Shown one piece after another: positions 25,254 through 43,756 of a stretch of 57,552 bases of DNA. A model generated the notes under the pieces. The model did no database searches. It was not told the DNA's origin and worked only from the letters and a program-made list of their open reading frames with translations. Position numbers and translations under genes: made by a program. Position 1 is the first letter of the stretch, and each line of letters opens with the position of its first letter. The DNA is from Clostridia bacterium (lineage in GTDB: Bacteria > Bacillota > DTU025): positions 1 through 57,552 of the forward strand of contig JAYFQW010000076.1 in assembly GCA_034926675.1 (NCBI GenBank), read 5' to 3'.

Positions 25254-25368
25254 TGAGTCCAGCTCCTCTCGCAAGATAGTGTTTGATGCGCCTTGGGCGC
25301 CATGGTCAGCATCTCCGAAGGATCCAGGGAATACTGCCCTCCTCTCATCCGTGACAGTCGAATGCGCA

Positions 25369-26253: not shown

Positions 26254-26278
26254 CCCTCTGGCACCTCGTCCTTTCTCT

Positions 26279-27163: not shown

Positions 27164-27237
27164 CGACCTAGTCAACCCCCATGCAACGTTTTCCGCGCCG
27201 ATCGCGGCAACCAGCGGCAGGAGCCGGCGCGGGTCCG

Positions 27238-28254: not shown

Positions 28255-28261
28255 GAGAGCA

Positions 28262-29080
28262 TCACTGCTCCTTTCTGGCTTGCTCCAACCTATGTATCAA
28301 GTACAAGCTCAATTCGGCGGCGCGTTCGGAAATTCCTTCTGACACTTGGAACTTTCTTTGCACCGCGGTGAGTTTCGCGAGGAGGCGCCATGCCGACCAA
28401 CCGACCGGAGGCGGTTTGCACTCATGATTGATAGACTCTCGGCGTTGGTCACGTTCTGACTTTTGGACTATAGCGTATGCCTCATCATGACCTTCAACCC
28501 TGTACCCCATCTTCGGCGCCCTTGACGGGATCGGAACGGAAGTTCTTCCACTCGAACACAGAGTCCCAGTTTCCTCCCGGATTCGCGCGCGCCGCATACC
28601 CAACACGGTATCCAGGTGCAAGCTGGACGCGGAGTGACCAAGTTCCTGCGGGAGATGGGCGCTTACAACCCAGGTTTACCGCCACAGTGCATGCCTACGG
28701 GGGATTTCGGACCCGGCAACGCCCCAAAAGCGCTCCCAGCAATCTCGTTTCGCCTAGATTTTGTCATATCCGCGTCTACTGTGGCCAATTTGAGCCAACT
28801 CGAGCCGTCATATACCCCCCCATTCCGCACGATCCAGCGTGAGAATGAGCCCAGCTGATCCGATTTCAACCACCTTGCGGGATAGCCTGGGTCAGATCCG
28901 TACACCTTAGCGGGAAACCTCACAGAAACGCGCTCGGGCCGCTTCGGGCCCTCCAGGCTTCCGGAGAGCGCCCAGGTTTGCGACCGCTGTGTGGCTCGCT
29001 TCGTCGTGATCGCCGGGGGCGTTGCTGCCAGACTGCGAGACTGCCAGGCCAGAGGCGTGTGCAGGGCTGCACGCCCGCGC
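28262..29080 (-). pseudogene. Decayed coding region, unidentified
   Basis: On the minus strand three overlapping frames each carry a protein-like stretch but none is complete. Frame one has VRFPAKVYGSDPGYPARWL and RWIVRNGGVYDGSSWLKLA. Frame two has PAGTWSLRVQLAPGYRVGYA and NPGGNWDSVFEWKNF. Frame three ends LLAKLTAVQRKFQVSEG onward to a stop at 28262. The first two look like beta-sandwich modules of a secreted protein broken by frameshifts. I cannot name the family, and parts may be chance. Confidence 0.35.
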
Positions 29081-29122
29081 TGCCTGACGAGGCGCGACCG
29101 GCACGACCGAGTCCTGGGGCGA

Positions 29123-29250
29123 TGATATCGACGAATCCAGCAGTGAGACGAGCTCAATGTCGATGGAATCGACGTTGAAACGCCCGCAATGTCGATGGAA
29201 TCGACGTTGAAACGCCCGCAATGTCGATGAATCCAGCATTGAGGCCCTCT
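29123..29250. repeat. Four tandem 32-bp units
   Basis: Units start at 29123, 29155, 29187 and 29219. The middle two are identical and contain the near-palindrome GTCGATGGAATCGAC. The outer two share GAATCCAGCA in the centre instead. The word CAATGTCGA also recurs at about 29405 and 29441, outside the array. No gene spans the repeat. Confidence 0.85.
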
Positions 29251-29700
29251 AAACGTCAGCTCTCGCAGAATCCGGGACGGGGAGCTTTCGCGGCGAACCG
29301 CATGGCATAATGTGGCGTGGCTGACTCGCAGGTAGACGCGTTTTCAGGGATGGGCCGGGTGCGCGATGCAGTTCACGTGTACCTCGACAGCGGGAGCCGG
29401 ACCGTCAATGTCGACGAAATGGACACTGACCCCGTGGTCAATGTCGAACTGAGTGGCATTCAGCTCGCGACGATGCCGGTTTGGTCGGCATTGACCGCCT
29501 GCGAGAAGACGTTGAGTTCGATGTGGTGAACAATGAGTCGGTGCATGTGGCTGATGGCGCTCGGACTCTTTCGGAATCAAAGCTGTTCCCGGATAAGACG
29601 CTCCGCGCCCTGGGAGTGTCGCCGTCCGTCTGTGTTGCGGCCCCACGGAACGTTCGTTTCCCTTGAGAAACGAGCGGTTGAATGCCCAAGGGTGCGGAAT
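29251..29700. other. Gene-free spacer before the TRAP remnant
   Basis: Frames on both strands here are short, lack ribosome sites and overlap each other. The plus strand shows Val-Asp-rich stretches that come from the recurring CAATGTCGA word. I see no gene I would defend. Confidence 0.4.
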
Positions 29701-29705
29701 ATGGG

Positions 29706-29740
29706 ACAAAGGGAGGCTGCCGATGCTCCGGCAGCCTCCC
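29706..29740 (-). terminator. Terminator of the aldehyde dehydrogenase / dctM-tail transcript
   Basis: A perfect 12-bp stem is formed by GGGAGGCTGCCG (29711-29722) and CGGCAGCCTCCC (29729-29740) with a six-base loop. Read leftward it ends in TTTGT. The same hairpin recurs behind the other dctM remnant at 55.8 kb. Confidence 0.75.
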
Positions 29741-29763
29741 CGAGATTTCCGTATCGCCGGACC

Positions 29764-29859
29764 TTAGTGCATGAAGAGTCTCGGCAGCAACAGCACAGTA
29801 TCCGGCGCCAGTAGGATGACCACTACTGCAACAATCATCACTGCACCAACAGACTTCAT
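29764..29859 (-). pseudogene. Tail fragment of a TRAP transporter large permease (DctM)
   Basis: The 31 codons AVMIVAVVVILLAPDTVLLL plus PRLFMH match, with few changes, the C terminus of the DctM remnant at 55.83 kb. Its apparent ATG overlaps the stop of the aldehyde dehydrogenase gene as ATGA. The rest of the permease is missing. Homology with the other copy continues through the terminator. I infer that a TRAP operon once followed the dehydrogenase gene and was deleted to this stump. Confidence 0.75.
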
Positions 29860-31352
29860 TGGGGCGGCAGAGTTCCTTCACTCATATCCATGAACACCGT
29901 TTTAGACCTCATGTATTTCTGAATGCCGGCAATGCCGAGACCGCTCTCTTTCCAGCCGGCTCCGGGAGACTCGTTAATGGCTTTGCTGAAGTAGGTGTTA
30001 ACATAGATTTGACCGGCCTTAATCGCTTCCGCTACCCGTAAAGCCCGTCGGCAATCATTGGTGAACACGGCTCCAGCTAGTCCAAAAGGCGTACCGTTGG
30101 CCAAATCTATCGCTTCTTGCTCAGTTTCAAAAGGCGTTACTGTAAGAACTGGACCAAAGATCTCTTCCTGGAAAATGGTCATTTCCGGAGTAACATCCGC
30201 AAATACGGTAGGAGGAACGAAGTTGCCCTTAGCCAGCGCCGGGTCGGTGTAGGGCACACCACCGGTAATCAGGCGGGCTCCCTCTGCTTTGCCCTTTTCA
30301 ATGTAACTCCATACCTTGGCGGCATGTTGCTTATGAATGAGGGGCGGTAGGTTTACCCCTTTTTCATAGTCGAAACCGTCGCCGGGGATCATCTTCTCGC
30401 ATTCGATCTTCAGTTGGGTCAAGAATTCATCATATATGGATCGATGCAAAATGAGGCGGGCGCCGGAAACGCAAACCTGTCCGGAGCTTAGGGTAAAACC
30501 GAAACGAGTCCACTTGACAGCGGATTCCCACTCAATATCCGGGAAAACGATGTTGGGGCTTTTGCCGCCCAGCTCCAAAGCAATGTCCTTGACAGTCTTG
30601 CTGGAATCAGCAATGACCTTCTTGCCTGTCTCGGTGCCGCCGGTCATGGATACCATATCCACTAACGGACTTTCAACCAATGCGCTGCCGACTTCACCGC
30701 CGGAACCGGTTACAACGTTGACAACTCCCGGCGGGAATCCGGCTTCGTGAAATAGCTCCGCCATGGCCAGGATGCTTAAGGAAGCCCAAGACGAAGGCTT
30801 GATGATGACAGTATTACCGGCAGCCAAAATGGACGCAACTTTGAAAGCGCCCATCATCAGTGGACCGTTCCAGGGCAATATCTCACCAACGACTCCCTGG
30901 GGTTGCCAGATTACATAGTTGAAGTATCTGCCTTCTCCGTCAACCGGCACGACCTTGCCTTCCAGGCAGCGAGCCTTGCCAGCACTATACTCAAAACCGT
31001 CTAGTCCCTTAACTGCTTCATAGTACAAGGAACTGGTAAAGATCTTGCCACAGTCCAACGCCTCCAGCGCGGCGAATTCCTCCAGTCGCTGCGACATTAG
31101 GTCTCTGGTCTTCAGCAAGAGCTGGCTTCTCTGGTAGTTGGTCGTCTTGCCCCAAGGACCGTGGTCGAAAGCATCCCTGGCTGCCAGAATCGCTTTTTCA
31201 ACATCTGCTTTGCCGCCTCTGTAAGCTGTGGCAAATCTCTCGTTATTGACAGGGTTGATGATATCAAAAGTCTCTCCGGATGCAGACGGAACGAATTCGC
31301 CGTTGATATAAAGCTTATAGGGTTCCTTCTTAACATAATCATACGGGTTCAT
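29856..31352 (-). CDS. NAD(P)-dependent aldehyde dehydrogenase
   Basis: The 498-residue protein is a full-length ALDH-superfamily member close to betaine/phenylacetaldehyde types. LPWNGPLMMGAFKVASILAA and NTVIIKPSSWASLS form the cofactor site. The catalytic Glu is in ALELGGKSPNIVF and the Cys in SSGQVCVSGARL; IFGPVLTVTPFE and GLAGAVFT follow. It would oxidise an aldehyde released or made during use of the substrate of the neighbouring reductase-type proteins. Start ATG with AAAGGGG upstream, 26 bp after the GrdE-like gene. Base composition is visibly lower in GC than genes on either side of the module. Confidence 0.93.
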   Translation of the reverse strand: MNPYDYVKKEPYKLYINGEFVPSASGETFDIINPVNNERFATAYRGGKADVEKAILAARDAFDHGPWGKTTNYQRSQLLLKTRDLMSQRLEEFAALEALDCGKIFTSSLYYEAVKGLDGFEYSAGKARCLEGKVVPVDGEGRYFNYVIWQPQGVVGEILPWNGPLMMGAFKVASILAAGNTVIIKPSSWASLSILAMAELFHEAGFPPGVVNVVTGSGGEVGSALVESPLVDMVSMTGGTETGKKVIADSSKTVKDIALELGGKSPNIVFPDIEWESAVKWTRFGFTLSSGQVCVSGARLILHRSIYDEFLTQLKIECEKMIPGDGFDYEKGVNLPPLIHKQHAAKVWSYIEKGKAEGARLITGGVPYTDPALAKGNFVPPTVFADVTPEMTIFQEEIFGPVLTVTPFETEQEAIDLANGTPFGLAGAVFTNDCRRALRVAEAIKAGQIYVNTYFSKAINESPGAGWKESGLGIAGIQKYMRSKTVFMDMSEGTLPPQ

Positions 31353-31378
31353 CGCCTGTGCCCCTTTCGAAACTGTTC

Positions 31379-32668
31379 TTAGTGATCACGTGCCGCAATC
31401 AAACCGAAGCCGGTCTGGTTGGCGCCGCAGTACATCTCGTGAGAGATATCAAACTCCAAACTGCCGGATGCGTCCATCCTGATCCCACCCAGTTCCCTTG
31501 CCAACCTCAGTTCCCCGCCTCCAACCGGCGTGAGCGGCGGAAGGACTATCTTCTTCTCGATACTCCCCGCACTCACTATGGCATCGGCCTCTTCCACGCT
31601 GTCCAGCAGGGCAATGGCATCCCCTTCAGGTCCACCCATCTCATAGGCAATGATCACCGCCTTGATGCCCACTTCTTCACATGCCTTGACTGTCTGCATC
31701 GCCTCAATTGCCGAGTTGCCGCCTCCTTCCCATGTTATGATGGCGCCCTGGGCATCCAGTTCCTTGGCCAGTTTGGCTGCATATTGTGCAGAACGAAGCT
31801 TCTCGTAGAATGTATAGTTATGTCCCCGGGCAATAACCACTCCGGCGAAATTGTGGTTGATCCCGTGCCCTTTGTATAGCTCCAACACCACAGGGTTGTT
31901 ACAGTGTAGATAGGTCGGTGTCTTGAAACAGGCATAGGCATAGTTCCCGCTGACCAGGCCACCGTCAATCATCTCATTGGGGTTGATCACTGTAGGCAAG
32001 TTGTCGTACATATCCTTGCCATAGCAATATGTATGGGCATATGTTCCTTGCGATTGATACTGGTGGATATAGACTACATTCGGAAGATCACTTCGCCTGT
32101 TCTCAGTACTGAAAACATCCATCACATCGGGTGTTAAGCTCCGGACGGTTTCCGCCAGGTATTTCGATACCTTGATGCCCGCCAGGCGAACAGCGACATC
32201 ATACTCCATATCTGACCTGCCTTCAGCCAGTTCAAAGGAGAGGACGATGTTGATCGTCTTGTGGAATGGACTGTAGTATTTTCCGGGCCCAACCATATCG
32301 ATTATTCCTTCTCGGGGTATCAGCAATCCCCCAGCATCCCAGGGCAGTTCCGCGCTTTCCATCACTGCGACTCCACTTAGCCGATGCGTTGTCCCTCTCC
32401 CAACTGTTATGGGGGCGGACATGAACCCCGGAAAGGATTCCAGCCCACTGTCTAGTTTGATTCGTGGCTCAATAACATCAAGGACATGAATGATCCTTTT
32501 TCGCTCCCCTGGTTTTACGATGTCTACTCGCACACCAGCGAGATTGCCGTCCTGCACAACCAGGTCCTTGATCTCCTGTTCATTGAGCCTAAGAACACCG
32601 TCCGCGAATGCCGTTTCACTATCGAACACAACGTCTTCTACTTCGAAAGCGCCTAGATTCAGCTTCAT
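31379..32668 (-). CDS. GrdE/GrdG/GrdI-family proprotein (reductase protein B, pyruvoyl subunit)
   Basis: The 429-residue protein matches the protein B alpha/beta proprotein of glycine, sarcosine and betaine reductases. In that family the chain is cut at an internal Cys to create a pyruvoyl group that binds the amine substrate. Here the matching place is YAYACFKTPTYLHCNNP, with Cys-247 as the likely pyruvoyl precursor; Pro-GrdE is cut at a similar position. INPNEMIDGGLVSGNY precedes it and GHGINHNFAGVVIARGHN follows. It is encoded 33 bp after the selenoprotein gene and surely works with it. The substrate cannot be told from the sequence. Confidence 0.88.
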   Translation of the reverse strand: MKLNLGAFEVEDVVFDSETAFADGVLRLNEQEIKDLVVQDGNLAGVRVDIVKPGERKRIIHVLDVIEPRIKLDSGLESFPGFMSAPITVGRGTTHRLSGVAVMESAELPWDAGGLLIPREGIIDMVGPGKYYSPFHKTINIVLSFELAEGRSDMEYDVAVRLAGIKVSKYLAETVRSLTPDVMDVFSTENRRSDLPNVVYIHQYQSQGTYAHTYCYGKDMYDNLPTVINPNEMIDGGLVSGNYAYACFKTPTYLHCNNPVVLELYKGHGINHNFAGVVIARGHNYTFYEKLRSAQYAAKLAKELDAQGAIITWEGGGNSAIEAMQTVKACEEVGIKAVIIAYEMGGPEGDAIALLDSVEEADAIVSAGSIEKKIVLPPLTPVGGGELRLARELGGIRMDASGSLEFDISHEMYCGANQTGFGLIAARDH

Positions 32669-32701
32669 AAGGCCCTTCCTCCTCTCAATGCCTTAGTCGT
32701 T

Positions 32702-34009
32702 TCATGCAGAGAATACTGTCGGCTTTTCGACTTCGGTACACAAGGCATCAAGTGCGGCCCTTACAAGCTTCCTCCTATACTCGATTTCTCGTTCCCATGG
32801 AAGAGAAGCATTACTGCACGTATAAGGAATACGACCGCCAATAACAATCCTGCTCGCTCCAACTGCTTCTGCAATTGAGCTCATCGCTGTAATACATGCC
32901 GCAGGTATTCCGGCTTTTTCTATTTCCTTGGTTAGCGTTGCACCGCAACGCGTGCCAGTCGCTCAGGTGGAGGGGATGAGAACGCCATCCACCTTTGCCT
33001 CCAGCAGTTCCCTGGCAATTTCCTCACCGAATCTCATGCTTCTATCAACCGGTGTACCGTTGCCCACAGTAGCGTAGTAGATATCATGCAGTTTACCAAT
33101 ATATCCTTCTCTTTCGAAATACCTCAAAGCGTCCACAGGCAGAACCCTATCTGGGTCCTCGTTGGCGAAACTGGCATCAAACCCTCCGTGAACGGCTTCA
33201 TACTGTCCCTTTTCTAGATCGGTGATCCCCCTTAAGGAATATGACGCCCAGTTCGTTGCATTGGCATGCCTAATCCTATCCGGATTCCCAAAGGGGACAA
33301 TTCCCGCTTCAGTCACCAAGGCGATGGTTGCTTGTGAAAGATCCTTGATCGGTTTGGCGGGCGCCACTTCCTCATATTTCTCTACTACCACCTCTGTCTT
33401 GAAGGGCTCGCCTTTCAGTTTCTTCTGCAGCATCTGCACGGCCCTCACGGCTGCAGGCTCATCTACTATCTGGTTAAGCCGTTTGCCGCGAGGGATATGG
33501 CCTTCCTCCTCGGCCGACAGAATCTCCTCGCCATTCATTATCTTTTTTCCCAACCTCGCCATATTGCGTATGGCGTCTTTCATGCCGGCTGCCGAGGCTG
33601 CCGCAGCTACGATGAGCAGGTCCTTCCTATAGATCTCCACTGCAGGGTTTTCAGGGTGCATGGCCGTAATCACGGGGATGCTGAGACGCTTGGCGACACT
33701 AGTACAGATCCCGCCGCAAGCCAGCCCATATCGTCCAGCATTGAAAGCTGGCCCTGCTGCCAGCAGATCCACACCCTTCTCACCAATTGCCTTGCAGACC
33801 TCATCAATAACTTGCTCACTATTCTCGCTATAGTAGTTATCACCGCAGATGATGGTTATCACGATCTCGTAGCCATCGCCCAGTTCTCTTTGCAGCGCTA
33901 TGCCCGGCCCAATATGCCCTTCTTTGATCGTAAGCGGCGTACCAGCAGCATCTTCACCGCCAATTCCGCCGTAAAACTGGTTGATATAGTGAGCTATTCG
34001 TTTCGTCAT
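32702..34009 (-). CDS. GrdB/GrdF/GrdH-family selenoprotein (reductase protein B, gamma subunit) with in-frame UGA
   Basis: The gene reads through a TGA at 32963-32965 as selenocysteine, giving 435 residues with Sec-349. Upstream it begins MTKRIAHYINQFYGGIGGED; it includes TIICGDNYYSENSEQ and AGPAFNAGRYGLACGGIC, typical of GrdB. After the UGA it continues ATGTRCGATLTKEIEKAG and ends GGRIPYTCSNASLPWERE. The family has Sec-x2-Cys-x2-Cys; here the middle Cys is Gly, leaving Sec-x5-Cys. ATG at 34009 follows GGAGG. A simple gene finder would split it into two frames (32963-34201 and 32702-32884). Protein B cleaves the C-N bond of an amine bound to its pyruvoyl partner. Confidence 0.9.
32935..32965 (-). 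promoter_or_regulatory. Candidate bacterial SECIS hairpin following the UGA codon
   Basis: Eleven bases after the UGA (32963-32965), GCGTTGC and GCAACGC form a perfect 7-bp stem around a GGT loop (hairpin 32935-32951). Bacterial SECIS elements that bind SelB lie just downstream of the UGA and carry a GU in the apical loop, as here. The stem also encodes protein, so its perfection is not forced by the amino acids. Confidence 0.75.
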
Positions 34010-34074
34010 ATGGCTTTCTACCTCCGTTGCACGTTCTATGCCGGCAGCAATGGTTTCAGTCCTCTGCATTTCGC

Positions 34075-34716
34075 CTACATCTGCTTGCGCCCCAGTTCCA
34101 GGGCTAGGGCCACCTTTGCTATGAACTCGCCATGCAGCCTGCCCAGGTTCTTTTCGTAATCGTGCACCGGACGCATCGCCTCTCCTCCACCAACTGCGCA
34201 ACTCGCTCCGTACTGGGTCCCGCCGACAACAACATCGATCTGTCTCATTTCGAATATGTCATGCCGGTTCGGCATTGGAACAACCACCATTCCAAAGTGC
34301 ATCAGTGTAGTTTGCATCCCTCTGATGGTTTCTTCAGCTCCACCATTCTGGCTTGCGGTTGAGGTAAAGGCGGCCCCAACCTTGCCGATCAGATCCCCGT
34401 TCAGCCACGGCGGAGCGGCGGTATGGTCCAGATAGTCCTGAAGCTGTGATGACATCCTGCCAAAATGCGTTGGAGCGCCCAGTATTATGGCATCTGCTTC
34501 CAGGATAGGTTCCGCGTCTCCCCACTGAGCCACTGGAATATGATCAAAACGTTCGCTCTCCGAACCCAATCTGGTCAAAGTCTCTTCGTCAAAGGTTTCT
34601 GGAACACGATACAAACTGGCTTCACAACCTGGAACTCTCCTTACCCCTTCTGCTATCGCCTCAGCTAGGTCGTATGTGTGCCCGCCGATACTGTGAAAGA
34701 TGATGTGCGCTCTCAT
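34075..34716 (-). CDS. WrbA-like flavodoxin-fold NAD(P)H:quinone oxidoreductase
   Basis: The 213-residue protein has the flavodoxin phosphate loop variant HSIGGHTYDLAEAIAEG and the WrbA signatures ADAIILGAPTHFGRMSSQL and GKVGAAFTSTASQNGGAEET. It probably carries FMN and handles two-electron transfer, perhaps to or from the reductase proteins. It begins after GGAGG and sits 65 bp upstream of the selenoprotein gene, on the same strand, within the low-GC module. Confidence 0.88.
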   Translation of the reverse strand: MRAHIIFHSIGGHTYDLAEAIAEGVRRVPGCEASLYRVPETFDEETLTRLGSESERFDHIPVAQWGDAEPILEADAIILGAPTHFGRMSSQLQDYLDHTAAPPWLNGDLIGKVGAAFTSTASQNGGAEETIRGMQTTLMHFGMVVVPMPNRHDIFEMRQIDVVVGGTQYGASCAVGGGEAMRPVHDYEKNLGRLHGEFIAKVALALELGRKQM

Positions 34717-34731
34717 TTGCTCCAGCCTCCG

Positions 34732-34881
34732 TTACTGATGTTGACTTCTCGATTGCTCAACAGGTTTTTCGCCGCAGTACACATCAATAAGCATTTGACG
34801 CGCCTGTTCTTGCGTCGGCGTAGTCGGCGCCAGTTTCGCGGACACCACATCAAGAGCCGGCTCATGGCCATACCCTGCCAT
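34732..34881 (-). CDS. Small unidentified protein, 49 residues
   Basis: The frame from ATG 34881 encodes MAGYGHEPALDVVSAKLAP followed by TTPTQEQARQMLIDVYCGEK and a short tail. The composition looks like a real soluble protein and a strong GGAGG for the next gene comes right after its TAA. A possible TTG start lies slightly upstream behind AGGAGG. A competing 65-residue frame (GTG at 34910) uses the same ribosome site but is Arg/Trp-rich and looks like a shadow. It may be a gene fragment; the family is unknown. Confidence 0.4.
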   Translation of the reverse strand: MAGYGHEPALDVVSAKLAPTTPTQEQARQMLIDVYCGEKPVEQSRSQHQ

Positions 34882-34953
34882 GCTGGCGGAACTGAGCAAT
34901 CCAGATTCACTCAGCCTCCTGCAATCGTCTATTGACTAGAGAAGGCTACGCCC

Positions 34954-35526
34954 TTACAGGAGGAAATCGCCATAGGGAGGGCTAGCTACCAAAAGGAAAC
35001 GCGCTGGCAAATCTTCAGTGTAGATCGAGTGCCTCATACTCGAACTGAACATGATAGGATCTCCCTTTTCCAGCTCATACGTTGTATCCTCTACCATCAC
35101 AAAGAGCTTTCCTTCTAGTACTGTGATGAACTCCTCACCTTCCTGATCGTGACAGTAGACCCTTCTTTCAGATGGGGTATGGGGTGGATGGTATACTTCC
35201 ATGACCTGCATGTTCTTCGAGCGCCCTGAAGTAATGAGGTTGAACCTCAATCCATCCTGTGTGTGGTATGTCGTTGTGTCGTCTCTGCCCACAAGCGAGA
35301 CAGGACCCTGACTTGCAGTTTTGAAGAAGTACACGAGGTCTACGTTGAAAAACTCCGATAATCTTTGCAGATTAGCAATTGAAATCGAGTGCTTGCTGTG
35401 CTCCAAACCCCACAGATACGAATAGCTCATGCCAGTCGCTTCTGCTGCCGCCTTCAAGGATATTCCTTTTACCTGCCGGAGCTTCTTCAGTTTGCCTCCG
35501 ACATCCACATTCTCGGCATTGCTCAC
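34954..35526 (-). CDS. XRE-family regulator with C-terminal cupin domain
   Basis: The 190-residue protein has an N-terminal helix-turn-helix (KLRQVKGISLKAAAEATGMS, then YLWGLEHSKHSISIANLQRL) and a C-terminal cupin that probably binds the inducer (HDQEGEEFITVLEGKLFVMV, then LEKGDPIMFSSSMRHSI). This PuuR-like architecture is common for control of amine and amino-acid catabolism. GTG at 35526 lies nine bases after AAAGGGAG; the longer frame to 35568 starts without a site. It heads the low-GC module and probably controls it and itself. Confidence 0.9.
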   Translation of the reverse strand: MSNAENVDVGGKLKKLRQVKGISLKAAAEATGMSYSYLWGLEHSKHSISIANLQRLSEFFNVDLVYFFKTASQGPVSLVGRDDTTTYHTQDGLRFNLITSGRSKNMQVMEVYHPPHTPSERRVYCHDQEGEEFITVLEGKLFVMVEDTTYELEKGDPIMFSSSMRHSIYTEDLPARFLLVASPPYGDFLL

Positions 35527-35548
35527 TTTCAATACTCCCTTTTTACAG

Positions 35549-35585
35549 GCTATACTGTTAACTAGCAACTGTCAACGCTATTATA
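35549..35585 (-). promoter_or_regulatory. Candidate promoter and direct-repeat operator of the XRE-cupin gene
   Basis: The minus strand has a TATAAT box (35580-35585) and, closer to the gene, TTGACA (35570-35575) with TATAGC (35549-35554) 15 bp away. On the plus strand ACTGTTAAC (35554-35562) and ACTGTCAAC (35568-35576) form a direct repeat with 14-bp period overlapping these boxes. Autoregulation is a plausible reading. Confidence 0.35.
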
Positions 35586-35818: not shown

Positions 35819-37549
35819 TCAGCGCATGCCCGGCAACCCTTCCAGATATGACCGTATCTCACCGCCGGTGCTCATGGACTTGATTCGTTCCCAGATCAAT
35901 GACGCATTCCGGGAATCGAGGCTTCTGACAATCTGCTTTGCCTTGGGCAAGGAAGAGGATGCCATGCTGAGTTCATCTATCCCCATTCCCACCAGAAAGG
36001 GAATGGCCATGGGCATCCCAGCCATCTCGCCGCACATGCCCACGTGCATCTGGTTGTTATGACCTTCCTGAATGGTTCTGGCGATGAGCCTCAGCACTGC
36101 AGGGGATAGGGGATCGTTGAGGTATCCAACATGCGGATTTCCACGATCACATGCCATGGTGTACTGGACTAGATCATTGGTGCCAATACTGAAGAAGTCG
36201 CACTCCTTCGCCAATATGTCTGCGGTCACGACCGCGGACGGTATTTCGACCATGATGCCGACAGGAATGTCGCTCTGCACCTCGACTCCCTCGCATGACA
36301 GCTCGCGTTTAACGCTCTCCAGCACGAACTTGGCGGCTCTGAGGTCTTCGACATTCGCAACCATGGGGAACATTATCTTCAGGTTGCCGTAGACTGATGC
36401 TCGCAAGAGGGCCCTGAGCTGAGTTTTGAAAAGCCGCTCCTCCTTGAGGCACAGGCGGACAGCCCTCAGCCCCAGAAAAGGATTGGCTTCGTTGGGCATG
36501 GCCAGATACGGGATGAACTTGTCGCCGCCCGCATCTAGAGTTCTCACAATCACCGGACGGGGGTCCATCTCGCAGAGCACTTGTTTGTAGGCCTCGAACT
36601 GCTCGTTTTCATCTGGGGCAGAGGTCCTATCAAGAAACAGAAACTCGGTGCGGAACAGGCCCACTCCTTCGGCGCCTGCAGCCTTCACCATCTTCGTGTC
36701 ATTAGGTCCACCGATGTTGGCAGCGAGCTGCACGCGCCTGCCATCAGCCGTGACCGAAGGCAGGTTGCAGAGAAGCATAAGCCTTCGCTTTTCCTCCCTG
36801 ATGGCCTCGACTCTTACTTGGCAATCTGCGCACTCTCTATCATCAGGAGTCACGATCACCTCACCGCTGTCACCATCCACTACCACCACATCACCATCGG
36901 CTATTGCCTTCGTCGCAGCGCCTACTGCCATGACAGCCGGAATGCCTAGGGCTCTCACAAGGATGGCCGTGTGCGATGTGGCTCCACCTCTATCCAAAAC
37001 CACCGCTGAAACCCTTGTTGCATCAAGGCCTGCAGTATCAGAAGGAGATAGATCATCGGCGACGATGACTGGGTTTTCGGGCATACCTGTTCCCGGAATC
37101 CCCATAGCGCCGCCCGTAAGGCAGCAGACTAGTCTTCGCCCGATGTCTCTGATATCCTGGGCTCTAGCTGCAAGATACTGATCCTCAAGCGCCTGAAGCG
37201 TCTTGGCGTTCTCCTCGCACACCATCGTGCAGGCTATCTCAGCGGAAACAAGATCATGCCGTATTCTGTCCTCAACCGACTCTTCAATAGTTGGATCCTG
37301 CACCATCAGCAGTTGTGCTTCGAAGATTGCCGACTCATGCTCGCCAACTCTAGCCAGGGTTTCCCTCTGGATCTCCGCGAGCTCACAACAGGCCCTCTGA
37401 ACTGCATCCTTGAATCTTGCTATCTCGGTTTCCGCTTCCGCCTCAACTATGTGTCGTCCTACGTCATCCGCATGAATGGCCCTCAGCACAACAGCGCGAC
37501 CAACGCATAGCCCTGGAGATACCGGAGTGCCCACTAGCTTCCTGCTCAT
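35819..37549 (-). CDS. ptsI: PTS enzyme I (phosphoenolpyruvate-protein phosphotransferase)
   Basis: The 576-residue protein takes phosphate from PEP and passes it to HPr. The phosphorylated His-193 is in DRGGATSHTAILVRALGIPA. The PEP site includes GVGLFRTEFLFLDR and the C-terminal marks FFSIGTNDLVQYTMACDRGN and GMCGEMAGMP. ATG at 37549 follows AGGGGGG; an upstream frame extension overlaps ptsH. It lies 10 bp after ptsH at the end of the mannose-class PTS operon, a place where general PTS genes are not usually found. Confidence 0.96.
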   Translation of the reverse strand: MSRKLVGTPVSPGLCVGRAVVLRAIHADDVGRHIVEAEAETEIARFKDAVQRACCELAEIQRETLARVGEHESAIFEAQLLMVQDPTIEESVEDRIRHDLVSAEIACTMVCEENAKTLQALEDQYLAARAQDIRDIGRRLVCCLTGGAMGIPGTGMPENPVIVADDLSPSDTAGLDATRVSAVVLDRGGATSHTAILVRALGIPAVMAVGAATKAIADGDVVVVDGDSGEVIVTPDDRECADCQVRVEAIREEKRRLMLLCNLPSVTADGRRVQLAANIGGPNDTKMVKAAGAEGVGLFRTEFLFLDRTSAPDENEQFEAYKQVLCEMDPRPVIVRTLDAGGDKFIPYLAMPNEANPFLGLRAVRLCLKEERLFKTQLRALLRASVYGNLKIMFPMVANVEDLRAAKFVLESVKRELSCEGVEVQSDIPVGIMVEIPSAVVTADILAKECDFFSIGTNDLVQYTMACDRGNPHVGYLNDPLSPAVLRLIARTIQEGHNNQMHVGMCGEMAGMPMAIPFLVGMGIDELSMASSSLPKAKQIVRSLDSRNASLIWERIKSMSTGGEIRSYLEGLPGMR

Positions 37550-37559
37550 CCATACCCCC

Positions 37560-37826
37560 CTATATCCCGTCGGCTGACTCATTTACTATTGACACGAGCT
37601 GCTGCAGTGCTTCAACTTCTCCTGTGCCGTCGGTTCGAATCACGACCTCCTGCCCGCATTGAACTCCCAAAGCCAGTACCTGGATCATGCTCCTGGCATC
37701 AGCCTTCTTCCCTGAAGCCATGAGCGTTATCTTGCACCTGTGCCTCATTGCTTCCTGAACGAGGCGCGCGGCAGGCCGGGCATGCAATCCCACCTTGCTC
37801 TTGATAGTCACCATGGCCTCAGTCAA
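37560..37826 (-). CDS. ptsH: PTS phosphocarrier protein HPr
   Basis: The 88-residue HPr carries phosphate from enzyme I to EIIA. I chose the TTG start at 37826 because it is eight bases after GGAGGA and because it places the active His at exactly residue 15 (VGLHARPAARL) and the regulatory Ser at residue 46 (ADARSMIQVLALG), the canonical numbers. Ser-46 suggests control by HPr kinase, as in other Bacillota. The start overlaps the end of the EIIA gene. Frames beginning at 37850 or ATG 37814 are less well supported. Confidence 0.93.
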   Translation of the reverse strand: MTEAMVTIKSKVGLHARPAARLVQEAMRHRCKITLMASGKKADARSMIQVLALGVQCGQEVVIRTDGTGEVEALQQLVSIVNESADGI

Positions 37827-38238
37827 TGTGCGTCTCCTCCGTTCCTCCATCGCTCAGGTTCACAGCTTGGATTCCCTCAATGCCGGCACCACAGGCAAGC
37901 CCGGAGAGATCGTCTATGTCCACTCCTTCACGGGATAAGAGCACAGTCACAAGCATCGGAACATTGACTCCAGTCACTACGCGGCTATTTCTCATAGTTG
38001 AGGCCAACGCAGCAACATTGCACGGCGTCCCGCCCTGCAAATCAGCAAGAAAAAGGGCTCCGTCACCGCAGTCCACCGTTTCCGAGGCCATGGCCACTGA
38101 ATCCCTGTAATCTTCCAGGCTCATGTCGGCCGTGAATGGAACACTAGCGACTTGAGCATGTGGCCCGACTATCATCTCGGCAGTCTCGAGGAGAGCCTCT
38201 GCCATTCGACCGTGGCACAACACTACTATGCCAACCAA
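37819..38238 (-). CDS. PTS mannose-class EIIA
   Basis: The 139-residue protein has the EIIA-Man opening VGIVVLCHGRMAEALLETA with the phosphorylated His in LCHG (His-9), and FLADLQGGTPCNVAAL, the standard second motif. TTG start at 38238 behind GGAGGG. It is a separate EIIA rather than fused to EIIB. Phosphate flows from HPr to this protein and then to EIIB, encoded 36 bp upstream. Confidence 0.93.
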   Translation of the reverse strand: MVGIVVLCHGRMAEALLETAEMIVGPHAQVASVPFTADMSLEDYRDSVAMASETVDCGDGALFLADLQGGTPCNVAALASTMRNSRVVTGVNVPMLVTVLLSREGVDIDDLSGLACGAGIEGIQAVNLSDGGTEETHID

Positions 38239-38274: not shown

Positions 38275-38748
38275 CTAGAGCTTGTGGCGAATGTCGTTTT
38301 TGGGAGACGAAGGAGTCATCTGAGAGAACACGACGATGCCCGCTCCCAGCATCTCCCTCAGAATCTCTATCTCCTCGGGATCCGCGCAAACAGACTCGTC
38401 CAGTCTGGCCCTTCCAGGGCCTGAAGGCATGTTGCCGAGGTTGACCTTCTTGATGTTGATGCCCCCATCGACAAGGCCCTTAACATCTCTTGGCGTTCGC
38501 GCTATCAGCATCACCTTGTCCCCGGAATTGTCCTTGTTGATGACGCCTATCGCCTGGGCAACAGTCAATACGTCAAGAGTCGCGATGCTCCTTGGCTTCG
38601 CCATCTTCAGAAGCGCCCTCTCCATTGGGTCATTGGCTGCTTTGTCGTTGACCACCATGAGCCTGTTGACGCCTGTGCCGTGAACCCATGCGGTAGACAC
38701 TTGCCCATGAATGAGCCTGCTATCGACTCTGACAAAGACCAGTTCCAT
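38275..38748 (-). CDS. PTS mannose/sorbose-class EIIB
   Basis: The 157-residue protein starts MELVFVRVDSRLIHGQVSTA, in which the His of LIHGQV is the phosphorylated residue. It continues MVVNDKAANDPMERALLKMA, typical of EIIB-Man/Sor. ATG at 38748 is preferred over 38757 because AGGAGG lies too close to the latter. It donates phosphate to the sugar crossing EIIC/EIID. Confidence 0.92.
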   Translation of the reverse strand: MELVFVRVDSRLIHGQVSTAWVHGTGVNRLMVVNDKAANDPMERALLKMAKPRSIATLDVLTVAQAIGVINKDNSGDKVMLIARTPRDVKGLVDGGINIKKVNLGNMPSGPGRARLDESVCADPEEIEILREMLGAGIVVFSQMTPSSPKNDIRHKL

Positions 38749-38827
38749 CCGTTTCATATCCTCCTATGTGAGTAGGTTCATTTCCAGATGGACCTCCATT
38801 GCACAGTGCCAGCGCGCCGTGCCCGAA

Positions 38828-38911: not shown

Positions 38912-39769
38912 CTAGCGGTCGAGGGCGCCGCTAGACCCAAATACCGTAATATAGTGCATTACCATCTTCTTGTATGCTTCGACGCCCGCTCCGTAAACCA
39001 TGCTCAATGGCAGGAACCCAAGGGCGGTAGTCTTGCCGCTTAACAGAAGTGCTTTGATGGCATTGGCGCCCGCCGACGACAAGTCGCTGAACAGATTTAT
39101 CTTGCTGATGCCTGTTCTGACCGCAAGGGCAAGCTTGTCGTCGCCTGTTGATGAACCGCCGTGAAGCACCAGGGGCACGGGTACGGCTTCGCGGAGTTCC
39201 GAAAGACGCCCAAAATCCAGTTGAGGCGTCTCCCCTTCATACAGCCCGTGCGCGGTTCCGACTGCAACAGCCAGGCAATCCACTGAAGTCAGTTTGACAA
39301 ACTCAACTGCCTCAGCTGGATCAGTAAGAGGGGCAGTACGATCCTCAGCATAATTGCGGGCGCTTCCAACTCGACCGAGTTCGGCCTCGACCGAGATTCC
39401 TGCTGCGTGCGCCATTTTCACGACCTCAGCCGTGATCTTCACGTTCTCTTCGAAGGGCAGCTTGGAGCAATCGATCATCACCGAAGTGAACCCGGCTCGT
39501 ATCGCCTTGGCGCAAACGTCAAAGGTGTGCCCGTGGTCGAGGTTGAGAGCAGCAGGGACCTCCGGATATCTTGCAGCGAAGAACCTGGCGATGTCGGCTA
39601 CTGCCTCGAAGTCGTTCATCTCAACGCAGTCTAGGATGATCGGAGACCTCAGTTCACTCGCAGCCTGAAACACCGCGTTCACTGTTTGCATGTCGTTGAC
39701 TCCCGGAGCTGCTACGCCGTACCGCTTCTGCCGCGCATCCTGCAACAACACATTCATAGTTGTAAGCAT
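38912..39769 (-). CDS. Class II fructose-bisphosphate/tagatose-bisphosphate aldolase family
   Basis: The 285-residue zinc aldolase has ALNLDHGHTFDVCAKAIRAG with the zinc His residues, MIDCSKLPFEENV, VEAELGRVGSARNY, and PLVLHGGSSTGDDKL. The usual zinc ligand Asp-His-Gly and the GGSS phosphate site are intact. It splits the phosphorylated sugar made by this PTS after oxidation or isomerisation. ATG at 39769 follows GAGGAGG; the upstream TTG lies inside that site. Confidence 0.92.
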   Translation of the reverse strand: MLTTMNVLLQDARQKRYGVAAPGVNDMQTVNAVFQAASELRSPIILDCVEMNDFEAVADIARFFAARYPEVPAALNLDHGHTFDVCAKAIRAGFTSVMIDCSKLPFEENVKITAEVVKMAHAAGISVEAELGRVGSARNYAEDRTAPLTDPAEAVEFVKLTSVDCLAVAVGTAHGLYEGETPQLDFGRLSELREAVPVPLVLHGGSSTGDDKLALAVRTGISKINLFSDLSSAGANAIKALLLSGKTTALGFLPLSMVYGAGVEAYKKMVMHYITVFGSSGALDR

Positions 39770-39805
39770 CAGATTAGTCCTCCTCAATTAGCTCATAGAC
39801 GGCTA

Positions 39806-40864
39806 CTACATCGTAATCACAATACGATAGGTGTCTGCCTTAATCGCTTCTTCAAAGGCTTGCTGAGCCTCATCAAGCGGCATGACCTTCTCGATCATCG
39901 GTTTGACGTCGATAATGCCGCGCGAAATCAGCAATGCGGCCTGATAGAGGGCCTTTCGGTTCTTGCTCGTTGATCCGGTGATCCAGATTCCTGACCTGTG
40001 TACGAAATTGGGGTCGATTGATATGGGCACAGCCGGATGAGCCGATGCAAACAGCATCATCTTGCCGTGAGGCGCCAGAAGCCTTAGGGCATCGTCATTG
40101 GCCGGCTTCACGCCTATCGCCACTATAACTACGTCAGCTCCACGCCCGTCGTTTACGGCCTTCAGTTGCTCAACGATGTCGTCGTTGATAGGGTCGAGAA
40201 CAGCGTGCGCTCCAGCCTTCAGGGCATGCGCGCGCCTGTTGGGATCCAGATCGCTTACCACAACAAATGCGCCCCTCGCCCGAGCAACCAGGACATTGGC
40301 TAATCCCATGGCGCCTGCTCCGATTACCACAACTGTTTGACCCAACTCAATGTCAAGCTTATCGGCGCTGTTGACAGCACAGGCAATCGGCTCTGCCAGA
40401 GCAGCCTCCTCAAAAGGTATGCTCTCCGACATCTTGACGAGGTCATGCGGATCCACGGAAGCGTACTCCGACATGCCAAAAATGCCCGCTATCCCATCTG
40501 GCCTGCCCGTATTCTGCTGTTTCTGCAGGCGTTCTTTCTCAGCTGGGCAAAAGGAGTCTTGCCCCACAGCGCACTCATGGCACTCACCACAGGCACTTCC
40601 TCCGCCGCGAGCTACATGGTCTCCAACCTTCAGAGGAGTGTGGGTGTCTGGGCCTATTGCTTCAACGATGCCCGACACCTCATGGCCCCAGCATCCTGGA
40701 TAGCGAGGAAAGACTCCAGTGAAGAACCTCTGCTCCAAGGTGCACAGTGCCACGGCCTTCTGCCTAACGAGCACCTCCCCTCGCTTTGGTGCAGGCATGT
40801 CGATCTCCCGCATTTCCACCCTTTCTTGTGCTACGATCACTGCTGCTCTTGACTTGACTAACAT
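39806..40864 (-). CDS. Zinc-dependent medium-chain polyol-type dehydrogenase
   Basis: The 352-residue MDR enzyme has CTLEQRFFTG at the catalytic-zinc Cys, GHEVSGIVEAIGPD, and a structural zinc set CGECHECAVGQDSFC. The nucleotide fold is TVVVIGAGAMGLANVLVARA. As in the first dehydrogenase (21.96 kb), an E-x-R replaces the more common SDxH after the zinc Cys. In this operon it likely oxidises a polyol phosphate to a ketose phosphate for the class II aldolase. The start has GAGGGGG upstream. Confidence 0.9.
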   Translation of the reverse strand: MLVKSRAAVIVAQERVEMREIDMPAPKRGEVLVRQKAVALCTLEQRFFTGVFPRYPGCWGHEVSGIVEAIGPDTHTPLKVGDHVARGGGSACGECHECAVGQDSFCPAEKERLQKQQNTGRPDGIAGIFGMSEYASVDPHDLVKMSESIPFEEAALAEPIACAVNSADKLDIELGQTVVVIGAGAMGLANVLVARARGAFVVVSDLDPNRRAHALKAGAHAVLDPINDDIVEQLKAVNDGRGADVVIVAIGVKPANDDALRLLAPHGKMMLFASAHPAVPISIDPNFVHRSGIWITGSTSKNRKALYQAALLISRGIIDVKPMIEKVMPLDEAQQAFEEAIKADTYRIVITM

Positions 40865-40956: not shown

Positions 40957-41793
40957 CTATGCCAAGATACCTAAAGCGCCAAGGATAGTGCCAGCCACGA
41001 AAACGCCCCAGATGATGTTGGTGACCTTGGCGCCCTTCTTGAGCAAATGCCATATGATCAGCACTGTCGCCAGGGGCAGGAGCCCGGGCATCAATCTGTC
41101 GAACACCTGCGTCTGGAGGCTGAAAGCGGTAATGTCTGAGATCTTCAGCTCATATGCGAACCTGAAGTTCACGTATCTGGCTGTTAAGCCGCCTGTAGCG
41201 ATAAGGCCCACGAACCCCGCGGCATCGGAAAGCCGCTCGAGTAGGCCGCTTTCGTACATGCGCTCAACCAGATTGCCGCCATGTACATAGCCCTGCATGT
41301 ACGCCCAATACGAGAATGCGTATGCGTACGCCGAAGCACCCACCGCGTAGATCAGTGGGCCTAGGCCGTTGCCCTCCAGGCCAAGAGAGATGCCTATTGC
41401 GAGCAGAATCGGAACCACCATGCCCTGAGTAATGGTGTCGCCAAGGCCTGCAAGAGGGCCCATGAGCGAGGTCTTCACTGAGTTGATAGTGTCATCATCC
41501 AATGGAACTCCGTTAGCGCGTTGCTCTTCCATAGAAGCTGCCAGACCTGCCGCCAGAGCTCCAACCTGAGGACTGGTGTTGAAGAATACAAGGTGGCGTT
41601 TGAGGGCAGCAGATATCTCTTCCTTGGTTTCATACAGATCCTCGATGATGGGAACCATTGCGTGAGCGAATCCAACCGCCTGCATGCGTTCCCAGTTGTA
41701 GAGACCATGCAGAAACGCCGACCAGTTGAACCAGGATTTCAGCAGCGCACGACGGGAGATTTTCTTCCTCGCCTGTGTTTTCTCAGCCGACAT
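40957..41793 (-). CDS. PTS mannose-class EIID membrane subunit
   Basis: The 278-residue protein has the EIID marks LLKSWFNWSAFLHGLYNWER, FNTSPQVGALAAGLAASMEE and SLMGPLAGLGDTITQG. It ends with a hydrophobic span (IIWGVFVAGTILGALGILA). It forms the sugar channel with EIIC. ATG at 41793 follows AAGGGGG and overlaps the EIIC stop by 11 bp; the frame extends to 41817 without a site. Confidence 0.93.
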   Translation of the reverse strand: MSAEKTQARKKISRRALLKSWFNWSAFLHGLYNWERMQAVGFAHAMVPIIEDLYETKEEISAALKRHLVFFNTSPQVGALAAGLAASMEEQRANGVPLDDDTINSVKTSLMGPLAGLGDTITQGMVVPILLAIGISLGLEGNGLGPLIYAVGASAYAYAFSYWAYMQGYVHGGNLVERMYESGLLERLSDAAGFVGLIATGGLTARYVNFRFAYELKISDITAFSLQTQVFDRLMPGLLPLATVLIIWHLLKKGAKVTNIIWGVFVAGTILGALGILA

Positions 41794-42538
41794 TCTCAGA
41801 GGCCCCCTTCCCATCATGCCTGAAGTACAGAAGAGCGGCAGTGCACATGCCTAGGATTACGATTCCGATGATGTCGAGCTTGAGATACGCTGCAAAAACG
41901 AACCCTATCAGGTAAATCGACAGATCCATAGTGTCGCGAGCCATGTAGCGGAACAGCATAGCGTAGCCTACGGCTGGCAGAAGCTTGCCAGTAACGCTCA
42001 AACCAGTCATTAGTTTCACCGGCATGGCCGAAATGAGGGCCTGAACTGGCTCGGCGCCAAACGCCACAATAAGGAATATGGGAATGGCCGGATACAGGAG
42101 CGCGGCAATCGTGCCTGGAATGAGGTTCAATCGCACAATGCCTCTGAGATTGCCCTCTTCTGCATATGCATCAGCCTTGTGAACGAACAACGACTTGACT
42201 GCCATCATCAGAGGATTCACTGCATTTCCCAGAAGTCCGATGGGTATGGCAAAAGCTAGCGCGGTCTCTACGCTCATGTTGGCGAGAATGCCCATGGCGG
42301 TGCCGACGATGCCTGCACTGGTCATATCTCCGGTAGCTGCGCCGCCAACGTTCATGTAGCCAATGTAAACAGCGTTGATAGCTGCGCCAATCCGAATTCC
42401 CTTGGCGACGTCACCGAGAATGAGGCCTACGACGGCTCCAGAGACCAATGGCCGCATGAACACCATGAAGCTTAGGTTGATGCTGAAAGGACTCGCTACC
42501 CACCAAGTGAACAGCCCGATGAGCAATGCTTGAAACAA
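41783..42538 (-). CDS. PTS mannose/sorbose-class EIIC membrane subunit
   Basis: The 251-residue membrane protein shows the EIIC-Man motif FMRPLVSGAVVGLILGDVAK, then AINAVYIGYMNVGGAATGD. I chose TTG at 42538, which lies about nine bases after AAAGGAGGT; the frame to 42574 has no site. It is the first gene of the operon. Confidence 0.92.
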   Translation of the reverse strand: MFQALLIGLFTWWVASPFSINLSFMVFMRPLVSGAVVGLILGDVAKGIRIGAAINAVYIGYMNVGGAATGDMTSAGIVGTAMGILANMSVETALAFAIPIGLLGNAVNPLMMAVKSLFVHKADAYAEEGNLRGIVRLNLIPGTIAALLYPAIPIFLIVAFGAEPVQALISAMPVKLMTGLSVTGKLLPAVGYAMLFRYMARDTMDLSIYLIGFVFAAYLKLDIIGIVILGMCTAALLYFRHDGKGASENVG

Positions 42539-42670
42539 CCTCTGCCTACCTCCTTTGTGTTGTGCCTGCAGCACGACTGAGTAGACACCCTGCCCTCCTC
42601 CGCATTTGCGCTAGCTGGCGCTCACCTCCCTCGACTTTTGCCTGATAATGCACTCTATTCCACACTGGTT

Positions 42671-42808: not shown

Positions 42809-43756
42809 GTGTCAGACAATGACGGCGCGGCTGAACACGATCTCAGCATTCTCGTGTTGATAAGCGAGATGTACTATATTCACGGAAGGACGCAGAAGGA
42901 TATCGCCGACGACCTCGGATTGTCTCGACCCGCTGTATCAAGGCTTCTGCAGACGGCTAGAGACCAGGGAATAGTCAACATATCCATCGTTGACCCTTCG
43001 AAACGGCTGAAAGAGCTTGAAGAGGAGCTCATGTTGGCCTTCGGCCTCAAGGGTTGCAGGCTCTGTCCATCAGGCGAAGACTGCGGAATCCTCAAGGCAC
43101 GCCTTGGCTACCGCGGAGCGGAGCTGCTTCGCGCAAGCCTGCAACCGGGTGACGTAATAGGAGTCGGAGCCAGTTCCACTGTTTATGAGGTCATCAAGGC
43201 GCTCTCCGAAACAAGGGATTGCCCCTGCCTACGAGTTGTTCCACTGTCAGGCGGCAATCTTGGCATCGACGGCCAGCCTCAGATCAACCAGGTGGTGCAC
43301 GTGGCGGCTCAGCGGCTGAATGCAGAGTTCAAATACCTCAATGCTCCCCTCTATATCGGTGAACCCAGCATCGCTGAGTCCTTGATGGAGGATGCATCCA
43401 TCCGGCAGTGCACTAGCCTGTGGGACCAGCTTGGATGCGCCTTGATTGGCGTCGGCAATGGCAACATTGCCGACATCCATGATCCTTACTTCATGGCGGC
43501 CCTTGAAGCAGTTGGGCACTCGCGTGTGGCAGCTGCAGTCTGCGGGTGGTTTCTTGATGCAGATGGCCACGGAATCAAGGGCAAGAGCACCACATCGGTA
43601 AGTCCTGATCAGCTGAAGAAGGCGCGCAACGTGTTTGCCATCGCAGGTGGAAAGGCCAAGGCGAGGGCGATCCTATCAGTTCTGCGAAGCGAGTTTGTAA
43701 CACACCTCGTCACCGATGAAGACGTGGCTCGAGCGGTCTTGTTCATGAAATCGTAG
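42809..43756 (+). CDS. SorC-family sugar-binding transcription regulator
   Basis: The 315-residue protein starts with a helix-turn-helix (YYIHGRTQKDIADDLGLSRP, then AVSRLLQTARDQGIVNI) and continues into the SorC phosphosugar-binding fold: PGDVIGVGASSTVYEVIKAL, VVPLSGGNLGIDGQPQINQV and GCALIGVGNGNIADIHDPYF. GTG at 42809 has GGAGGGG upstream. It is divergent from the PTS operon and likely responds to a phosphorylated intermediate of that pathway. Confidence 0.93.
   Translation: MSDNDGAAEHDLSILVLISEMYYIHGRTQKDIADDLGLSRPAVSRLLQTARDQGIVNISIVDPSKRLKELEEELMLAFGLKGCRLCPSGEDCGILKARLGYRGAELLRASLQPGDVIGVGASSTVYEVIKALSETRDCPCLRVVPLSGGNLGIDGQPQINQVVHVAAQRLNAEFKYLNAPLYIGEPSIAESLMEDASIRQCTSLWDQLGCALIGVGNGNIADIHDPYFMAALEAVGHSRVAAAVCGWFLDADGHGIKGKSTTSVSPDQLKKARNVFAIAGGKAKARAILSVLRSEFVTHLVTDEDVARAVLFMKS

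Follow-up and report, generated by a model that had tools for sequence, protein, structure and literature searches.

We analysed a stretch of 57,552 nucleotides (the window), contig JAYFQW010000076.1 of assembly GCA_034926675.1, from a Clostridia bacterium whose genome measures 3.38 Mb and is 97% complete. On the minus strand of the window lie, in the order of transcription, genes for an XRE-cupin regulator, the flavoprotein WrbA, a GrdB-type selenoprotein, a GrdE-type subunit, and an aldehyde dehydrogenase (ALDH), the gaps from WrbA through ALDH being 65, 33, and 26 bp. All five genes had been predicted at this place from the sequence alone, and all five were borne out by profile matches (Table 1). 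GrdB and GrdE make up the substrate-specific protein B of glycine-reductase-type systems. The original prediction also held that genes for protein A, protein C, and thioredoxin are missing from the window, and the profile searches agree, giving no match there to grdA, grdC/D, or trx.

The GrdB gene (34009-32702) is longer than the standard open reading frame call, its real stop being a second TGA at 32704-32702. The first TGA, at 32965-32963, falls within PST-U-ATGTRCGA, the selenocysteine (Sec) position of GrdB, and corresponds to Sec349; the same in-frame TGA was found in every GrdB homolog whose locus covers the Sec site. We compared the gene with its orthologs at loci L042 and L038, which together with the window locus constitute type A; with a sister type, B, the A/B loci number eight. 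After the UGA, the differences at codon positions 1, 2, and 3 were 8, 4, and 39 against L042 and 14, 10, and 48 against L038, giving third-position shares of 39/51 and 48/72, and the amino acid identities to the two orthologs were 86% and 79%, compared with 79% and 67% before it. As third-position changes dominate beyond the UGA, the substitution pattern indicates that the codons past it are under purifying selection in the three genomes and that the tail is translated. The host genome contains a strong match to tRNA-Sec (76.8 bits). A 7-bp hairpin (GCGUUGC-GGU-GCAACGC), found in the type A genes, lies 11 nt 3' of the UGA at the place of a bacterial Sec insertion element; its folding was no better than that of shuffles and we do not count it as evidence that Sec is inserted.

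The Sec motif of the three type A genomes is UATGTRC, with UxxGxxC in place of UxxCxxC. A GrdB without UxxCxxC has been called a likely pseudogene in one paper (PMC6778437), and the lost cysteine might similarly mark a decaying or nonfunctional grd paralog. Against this stand the retention of UATGTRC in three genomes and the purifying selection on both sides of the UGA, as well as the example of FarB, which likewise lacks these cysteines and whose operon is strongly induced by fluoroacetate (PMC10838667). We rejected a pseudogene on the codon-position test and regard decay as extremely improbable.

By its profile scores, the pair belongs to the broad protein B family (TIGR01918, PF07355, and PF09338); it stays under the cut-offs of the glycine, sarcosine, betaine, and fluoroacetate models and, although it would work in a similar way, cannot be equated with any named member. 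GrdB exceeded the cut-offs of the broad models TIGR01918 (508 bits; cut-off 65.45) and PF07355 (487 bits; cut-off 22), and GrdE, which starts 33 bp downstream of GrdB, that of PF09338 (438 bits; cut-off 22.2). Below the cut-offs were the scores of GrdB against the glycine reductase equivalog TIGR01917 (457.8 bits; cut-off 602.2) and the models for betaine-type GrdH (485.8; 775) and sarcosine-type GrdF (498.6; 800), and those of GrdE against sarcosine-type GrdG (312.5; 780) and FarE (123.2; 675). The FarE score led us to reject an identity with FarBE. A sequence search of the PDB gave no solved homolog of GrdB or GrdE.

The GrdE subunit has lost its pyruvoyl site. In Clostridioides difficile GrdE, the pyruvoyl peptide starts at residue 242 (PMC9908766). 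Our alignment of 73 GrdE sequences showed GNCVSACDKN or a close variant at this site in the canonical proteins, GNYAYACFKT in the window and its two orthologs, and GNYVWPAFKV in type B; the Cys242 pyruvoyl site is gone from both types. Betaine-type GrdI, partnered by GrdH proteins above the curated betaine cut-off, is also without the pyruvoyl cysteine (GSFMPCSSKW), and the products of grdI and farE are not pro-proteins (PMC10838667). In the GrdE tree, the three rows of type A and the five rows of type B were each supported at 100/100 and, with further pyruvoyl-free rows, formed a group of 13 (100/96) apart from all canonical and betaine rows. The window pair lies outside the clade of L114 and L068, the GrdH loci exceeding the cut-off, and a quick GrdB tree placed both types outside the glycine, sarcosine, and betaine set. 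Further members of type B were sought in the relatives of genomes G141 and G214, and none was found there. The loss of the pyruvoyl site makes an amine needing a Schiff base, that is, a primary or secondary one, less likely; as the role of the pyruvoyl group is itself debated (PMC9908766), the loss is not strict proof against such an amine.

The conserved partner of GrdB-GrdE is an aldehyde oxidiser, not WrbA. All eight A/B loci contain one, ALDH in seven cases and an aldehyde oxidoreductase (AOR) standing in for it in one (L101), in comparison with 1/52 of the other grd loci (Fisher's test, 3.5e-9). The ALDHs of the other A/B loci are 62-84% identical to that of the window and the accompanying GrdE proteins 43-85%, and across these loci the ALDHs are closer to each other than are the GrdE proteins beside them. 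Among 398 genomes of the phylum, this ALDH subfamily was present in 5/6 A/B genomes and 1/392 others (Fisher's test, 4e-10), the sixth A/B genome being the one that carries AOR. A survey of other genomes for the order WrbA-GrdB-GrdE-ALDH had been suggested as a check, and the part from GrdB to ALDH is kept in two of them; none of the seven further A/B loci examined, both orthologous ones included, has WrbA. The gene preceding GrdB in L038 is an aldolase, and the approximately 500 bp available before GrdB in L042 give no WrbA match. The proposed flow of electrons through WrbA thus found no support: we rejected WrbA as the electron carrier since it is not conserved, and the protein is probably outside the mechanism.

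The missing components are encoded elsewhere in the host genome, which contains three GrdB genes. Searching it for grdA, grdC, and grdD uncovered a complete grd operon on contig 3 (L004), consisting of TrxB-Trx, GrdE, GrdA with a TGA Sec codon, GrdB, and a GrdC-GrdD fusion. A complete operon elsewhere lacking its protein B, together with a window gene set confined to this genome, had been named beforehand as a refutation and was not what we found: the contig 3 operon has a protein B of its own, and the core gene set of the window is conserved in other genomes. The suggestion that the window encodes a substrate-specific protein B borrowing proteins A and C holds up well, contig 3 offering GrdA, the GrdC-GrdD fusion, and TrxB-Trx. 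A second stand-alone pair, on contig 57, is accompanied by ALDH and an APC permease. GrdA was found in 8/8 of the tested Bacillota genomes with pyruvoyl-free pairs of this superclade and also in the one that carries L038. Within L101 of G214, between GrdE and EIIA, lies a further grdA with the motif CFVU, the second of that genome, and in G218, a second grdA (L174) adjoins genes for ALDH, an iron-dependent alcohol dehydrogenase (Fe-ADH), and an APC permease. Because all tested Bacillota carriers have GrdA and grdA lies inside L101 and L174, the type A and B pairs most likely feed GrdA like other protein Bs; for a transfer of the carboxymethyl group to GrdA, its presence in these two loci would be an indirect sign.

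A B pair that does without GrdA would instead draw electrons from WrbA or a different flavoprotein and reduce the substrate itself, in the manner of D-proline reductase. The placement of WrbA 65 bp upstream of GrdB and the lack of a grdA match in the window would fit such an enzyme. We consider it very unlikely, as the seven A/B loci besides the window have no WrbA, all tested Bacillota carriers possess grdA, two related loci have it inside them, and D-proline reductase is matched weakly and in part.

Three side observations concern the other grd loci of the host. GrdC and GrdD are fused into a protein of 921 aa (L004, 5948-8713), and one long match over both was also seen in L051, L052, and L055. 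Within the same operon, thioredoxin reductase is fused to a thioredoxin domain (12362-13603). The Fe-ADH gene beside the second module of the host genome (L005, 6449-7378) looks truncated.

Upstream of the XRE gene and after a gap of 250 bp, a run of genes for a phosphotransferase system (PTS), an aldolase, and a dehydrogenase continues on the same strand up to 42574 (Table 1); the original prediction had not linked it to the pair. Three other loci support such a link. In L038, an aldolase 74% identical to that of the window stops 52 bp short of the GrdB start codon, and GrdE and ALDH follow. In L101 of G214, ferredoxin and AOR stand before GrdB, and the order continues GrdB, GrdE, GrdA, EIIA, EIIB, EIIC, EIID, zinc-dependent dehydrogenase, class I aldolase, and SorC. 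In L102 of G141, the order is XRE-cupin, GrdB, GrdE, ALDH, Fe-ADH, SorC, class I aldolase, zinc-dependent dehydrogenase, and APC permease. The window and L101 arrive at the same gene combination with aldolases of different families. We saw no sugar-phosphate kinase in the gene run of the window, and the second product of the aldolase should therefore be an unphosphorylated aldehyde. The open-access literature, subscription papers being outside this scope, gave no report of a GrdBE-ALDH-aldolase-PTS combination.

Table 1. Predicted genes and features of the GrdB block and the adjoining sugar genes, with positions in the window
Feature	Positions	Strand	Basis
Aldehyde dehydrogenase (ALDH)	29856..31352	-	PF00171, E 2e-155
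GrdE-type protein B subunit lacking the pyruvoyl-forming Cys (GNY for GNC)	31379..32668	-	PF09338, E 3e-131
GrdB-type protein B subunit, a selenoprotein (Sec349)	32702..34009	-	PF07355, E 5e-146
In-frame TGA read as selenocysteine	32963..32965	-	
WrbA, NAD(P)H:quinone oxidoreductase type IV	34075..34716	-	TIGR01755, 165 bits, cut-off 132.5
XRE-cupin transcriptional regulator	34954..35568	-	PF01381, PF07883
PTS enzyme I (EI)	35819..37582	-	PF05524, PF00391, PF02896
HPr	37560..37850	-	Sequence; 55% match adjoining EI in L162
PTS EIIA, mannose family	37819..38238	-	PF03610
PTS EIIB, mannose/sorbose family	38275..38757	-	PF03830
Class II ketose-phosphate aldolase	38912..39787	-	PF01116
Zinc-dependent polyol-type dehydrogenase	39806..40864	-	PF08240, PF00107; relatives in L101, L102, L161, L162
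PTS EIID	40957..41817	-	PF03613
PTS EIIC	41783..42574	-	PF03609
SorC-family regulator, divergent	42809..43756	+	PF04198; kept beside the zinc-dependent dehydrogenase in L161, L162

The regulator of the block had been described as PuuR-like and taken to indicate an amine substrate. It scored 68.7 bits against the PuuR model (cut-off 211), and with Cys242 lost and the neighbours being genes for sugar uptake and cleavage, that argument is unsupported; an amine substrate is possible, as type B loci often have an APC permease. Homologs of the XRE-cupin protein (41-49% identity) precede or flank GrdB-GrdE in L102, L103, and L105. The G+C content of the GrdB block, 51.7%, is below the 55-58% around it, which suggests that the block may have been inserted into its present place. 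Scans for promoters and terminators gave matches no more numerous than in shuffles.

The surroundings of the block show a further pattern. Beyond its far side, positions 20157-28254 encode RpiR, a class I aldolase, a second zinc-dependent dehydrogenase, a TIM-barrel protein, a sugar ABC transporter, and EamA. This unit, noted for the window and L161, is syntenic with contig C70 of genome G001, where it is contiguous with a SorC/zinc-dependent dehydrogenase/class II aldolase unit: the class II aldolase of G001 is directly followed by EamA, the sugar ABC transporter, the TIM-barrel protein, the second zinc-dependent dehydrogenase, and the class I aldolase. These two units, contiguous in G001, are separated in the window by the block of GrdB and PTS genes. 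The 1.6 kb between ALDH and EamA (28255-29855) have no recognised gene, and a segment of 59 bp at approximately 28301-28359 matches the region upstream of GrdB in L042 at 85%.

We consider it reasonably probable that the pair serves a glycine-reductase-type system as its own dedicated protein B without a pyruvoyl group, acting on an aldolase- and ALDH-derived X-CH2-COO- and leading to acetyl phosphate. The mannose-family PTS would take up and phosphorylate a sugar or polyol, the zinc-dependent dehydrogenase would oxidise the PTS product to a ketone, and the class II aldolase would cleave the ketone into dihydroxyacetone phosphate and an unphosphorylated X-CH2-CHO, which ALDH (or AOR) would oxidise to X-CH2-COO-. 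The Sec349 selenolate of GrdB, helped by GrdE, would then displace X and the carboxymethyl group would move to the Sec of GrdA, from which GrdC/GrdD of the main grd operon would make acetyl phosphate with electrons from thioredoxin. We infer the early steps (uptake, oxidation, and cleavage) from the gene content and the last ones from the known mechanism of glycine reductase (PMC13188914, PMC10838667); the order of the reactions, the transfer to GrdA, and the product are likewise inferred. We think it probable that a sugar-derived acid, and not glycine, is what the enzyme converts to acetyl phosphate. The leaving group might be a hydroxyl (as in glycolate or lactate), an amine that is tertiary or quaternary, or another group; the APC permeases and Fe-ADH of type B favour a nitrogen compound there, and the PTS and aldolase of type A and L101 a sugar or polyol. 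Methylthioacetaldehyde and sulfoacetaldehyde were tried as X-CH2-CHO and rejected, no supporting genes being nearby.

Several observations weigh against this proposal. The GrdE tree gives only 94/71 for types A and B by themselves, the quick GrdB tree does not unite them, and the missing pyruvoyl cysteine alone names no substrate. Genome G284 has the ALDH and no GrdB was found in it. The SorC/zinc-dependent dehydrogenase/aldolase unit and GrdB-GrdE-ALDH are on separate contigs in G001, so that the coupling to the class II aldolase is not obligatory, and G004 has this unit together with HPr and EI and no type A GrdE was found there. L005, L043, and L103 show an APC permease and no aldolase nearby. 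In the window itself, the PTS genes are parted from GrdB by two gaps (237-250 bp) and the regulator, which makes a separate transcription unit possible.

The type B neighbourhoods and the affinities of the ALDH bear on a different substrate. The pair could reduce a glycine that is N-substituted or quaternary, X being an amine and the substrate betaine, dimethylglycine, or similar; an imported amino alcohol would be oxidised by Fe-ADH and ALDH, and the sugar genes would be separate or supply an amino-polyol. APC permeases are found in the type B loci L005, L043, L102, L103, and L174, with Fe-ADH in 4/5 of them, and among solved structures and curated models the ALDH is closest to betaine aldehyde dehydrogenase (BADH). 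Most known GrdB relatives act on C-N bonds, GrdI likewise without a pyruvoyl cysteine (PMC10838667). On the other hand, GrdB is far under the betaine, sarcosine, and glycine cut-offs and outside those clades, and the ALDH reaches 472.2 bits against the BADH model, below the cut-off of 668.6. The tyrosine of AWNYP in the solved BADH 2wme is replaced by glycine or cysteine (WNGP, WNCP) in all seven ALDHs, the window having WNGP, and type A and L101 adjoin PTS and aldolase genes instead. We regard this alternative as possible but rather unlikely. Its specific form, betaine aldehyde converted to betaine and passed to GrdHI, was rejected as the plain reading, since GrdB neither reaches the cut-off for GrdH nor falls in its clade, and the ALDH stays under the BADH cut-off and has no WNYP tyrosine.

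A special case of the preferred proposal, the sugar-linked protein B, takes X as hydroxyl. Glycolate or lactate would be made from glycolaldehyde or lactaldehyde set free by the aldolase, and a selenium-dependent 2-hydroxyacid reductase would convert the acid to acetyl or propionyl phosphate. An aldolase, ALDH, and Fe-ADH are the classic set around lactaldehyde and glycolaldehyde in the fucose and rhamnose pathways, and models for lactaldehyde reductase also pick up the L102 Fe-ADH, though below cut-off. A PTS and zinc-dependent dehydrogenase without a kinase would convert an alditol phosphate to a ketose 1-phosphate, and the pyruvoyl loss fits a non-amine. Hydroxide is, however, a poor leaving group, and we know of no Grd-type enzyme that displaces it; this case also leaves the APC permeases of type B unexplained, and the sugar is not indicated by the data. 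We hold it to be distinctly doubtful.

The known systems resemble the window set in different parts. Like the GrdB-GrdE of clostridial glycine reductase, the pair combines PF07355 and PF09338, has Sec at the same place, and occurs in a genome with grdA and grdC/D; unlike it, the window GrdE is without the pyruvoyl cysteine, GrdB has UxxGxxC rather than UxxCxxC and scores below the glycine cut-off, and the pair lies outside the grdA-grdC operon and is linked to ALDH and sugar genes. Betaine reductase GrdH-GrdI shares a GrdE-type subunit without the pyruvoyl cysteine, Sec in the GrdB-type subunit, and the common use of GrdA and GrdC, whereas it forms a separate clade with the signature GSFMPCSSKW and keeps UxxCxxC (the window GrdB scoring 486 against the cut-off of 775). 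FarB-FarE of Synergistota is likewise a stand-alone B pair that uses GrdA and GrdC encoded elsewhere, with no pyruvoyl cysteine in FarE and no cysteine after Sec in FarB, and acting on X-CH2-COO- where X is not an amine. Its neighbours are, in contrast, an antiporter and a radical SAM protein, with no ALDH, aldolase, or PTS, and the FarE score is 123 against 675. D-proline reductase PrdA-PrdB consists of distant homologs, a Sec and pyruvoyl pair working without GrdA, to which the window matches are partial and weak (48 and 90 bits against cut-offs of 700 and 300). In fucose- and rhamnose-type pathways, the aldehyde released by the aldolase is handled by AldA (an ALDH) and FucO (an Fe-ADH), which is the feature in common, whereas in the window a selenoprotein reductase apparently uses up the acid.

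Among the related loci, we noted cases of interest in their own right. L104 (G194:C15, 4661-17972) has a pyruvoyl-free GrdB-GrdE (UGSGTRC) with its own grdA among purine-related-looking genes, including xanthine-dehydrogenase-like subunits, a BmpA-type nucleoside ABC transporter, and an amidohydrolase; BmpA occurs twice and GrdB has an additional partial copy, which shows a tandem duplication. This pair may reduce a purine-derived relative of glycine. L039, L040, and L041 (Myxococcota/Deltaproteobacteria) carry GrdE-GrdB with Sec in the motif UGTGTRSGA, without both post-Sec cysteines and the pyruvoyl cysteine; two of these genomes have grdA at another place, and the search of the third gave none. 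L106 (G113:C76, 9322-11958) is a long-branch pyruvoyl-free GrdB-GrdE (UGTCTRAG) that adjoins an MFS transporter and lies near an amidohydrolase and a TetR regulator. In the G001 locus that corresponds to the second module of the host genome, the APC permease retains no more than its first 95 residues (L043, 7280-7564). The ALDH of G284 (L173; G284:C87:9444-10919), 66% identical to that of the window, stands alone in a 1.5 Mb Bacillota genome without detected GrdB.

The known substrates of glycine-reductase-type enzymes are amino acids, methylated amino acids, and fluoroacetate. Here, two pyruvoyl-free subtypes, A and B, are linked with aldehyde oxidation, and four genomes add a link with genes for sugar uptake or cleavage. 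It is a tentative and, in our judgement, unlikely prospect that a selenoenzyme in carbohydrate breakdown removes a non-amine group, such as the hydroxyl of glycolate, from a sugar-derived acid and so turns the aldolase's small aldehyde into acetyl phosphate; if true, the enzyme family would gain a bond reduction new to it, and sugars or sugar alcohols would enter a new anaerobic route that yields energy. If the assignment of the pair to a sugar-derived acid is right, selenium-dependent substrate-level phosphorylation would reach carbohydrates, and pipelines labelling these genes as glycine, sarcosine, or betaine reductase would mispredict their substrates.

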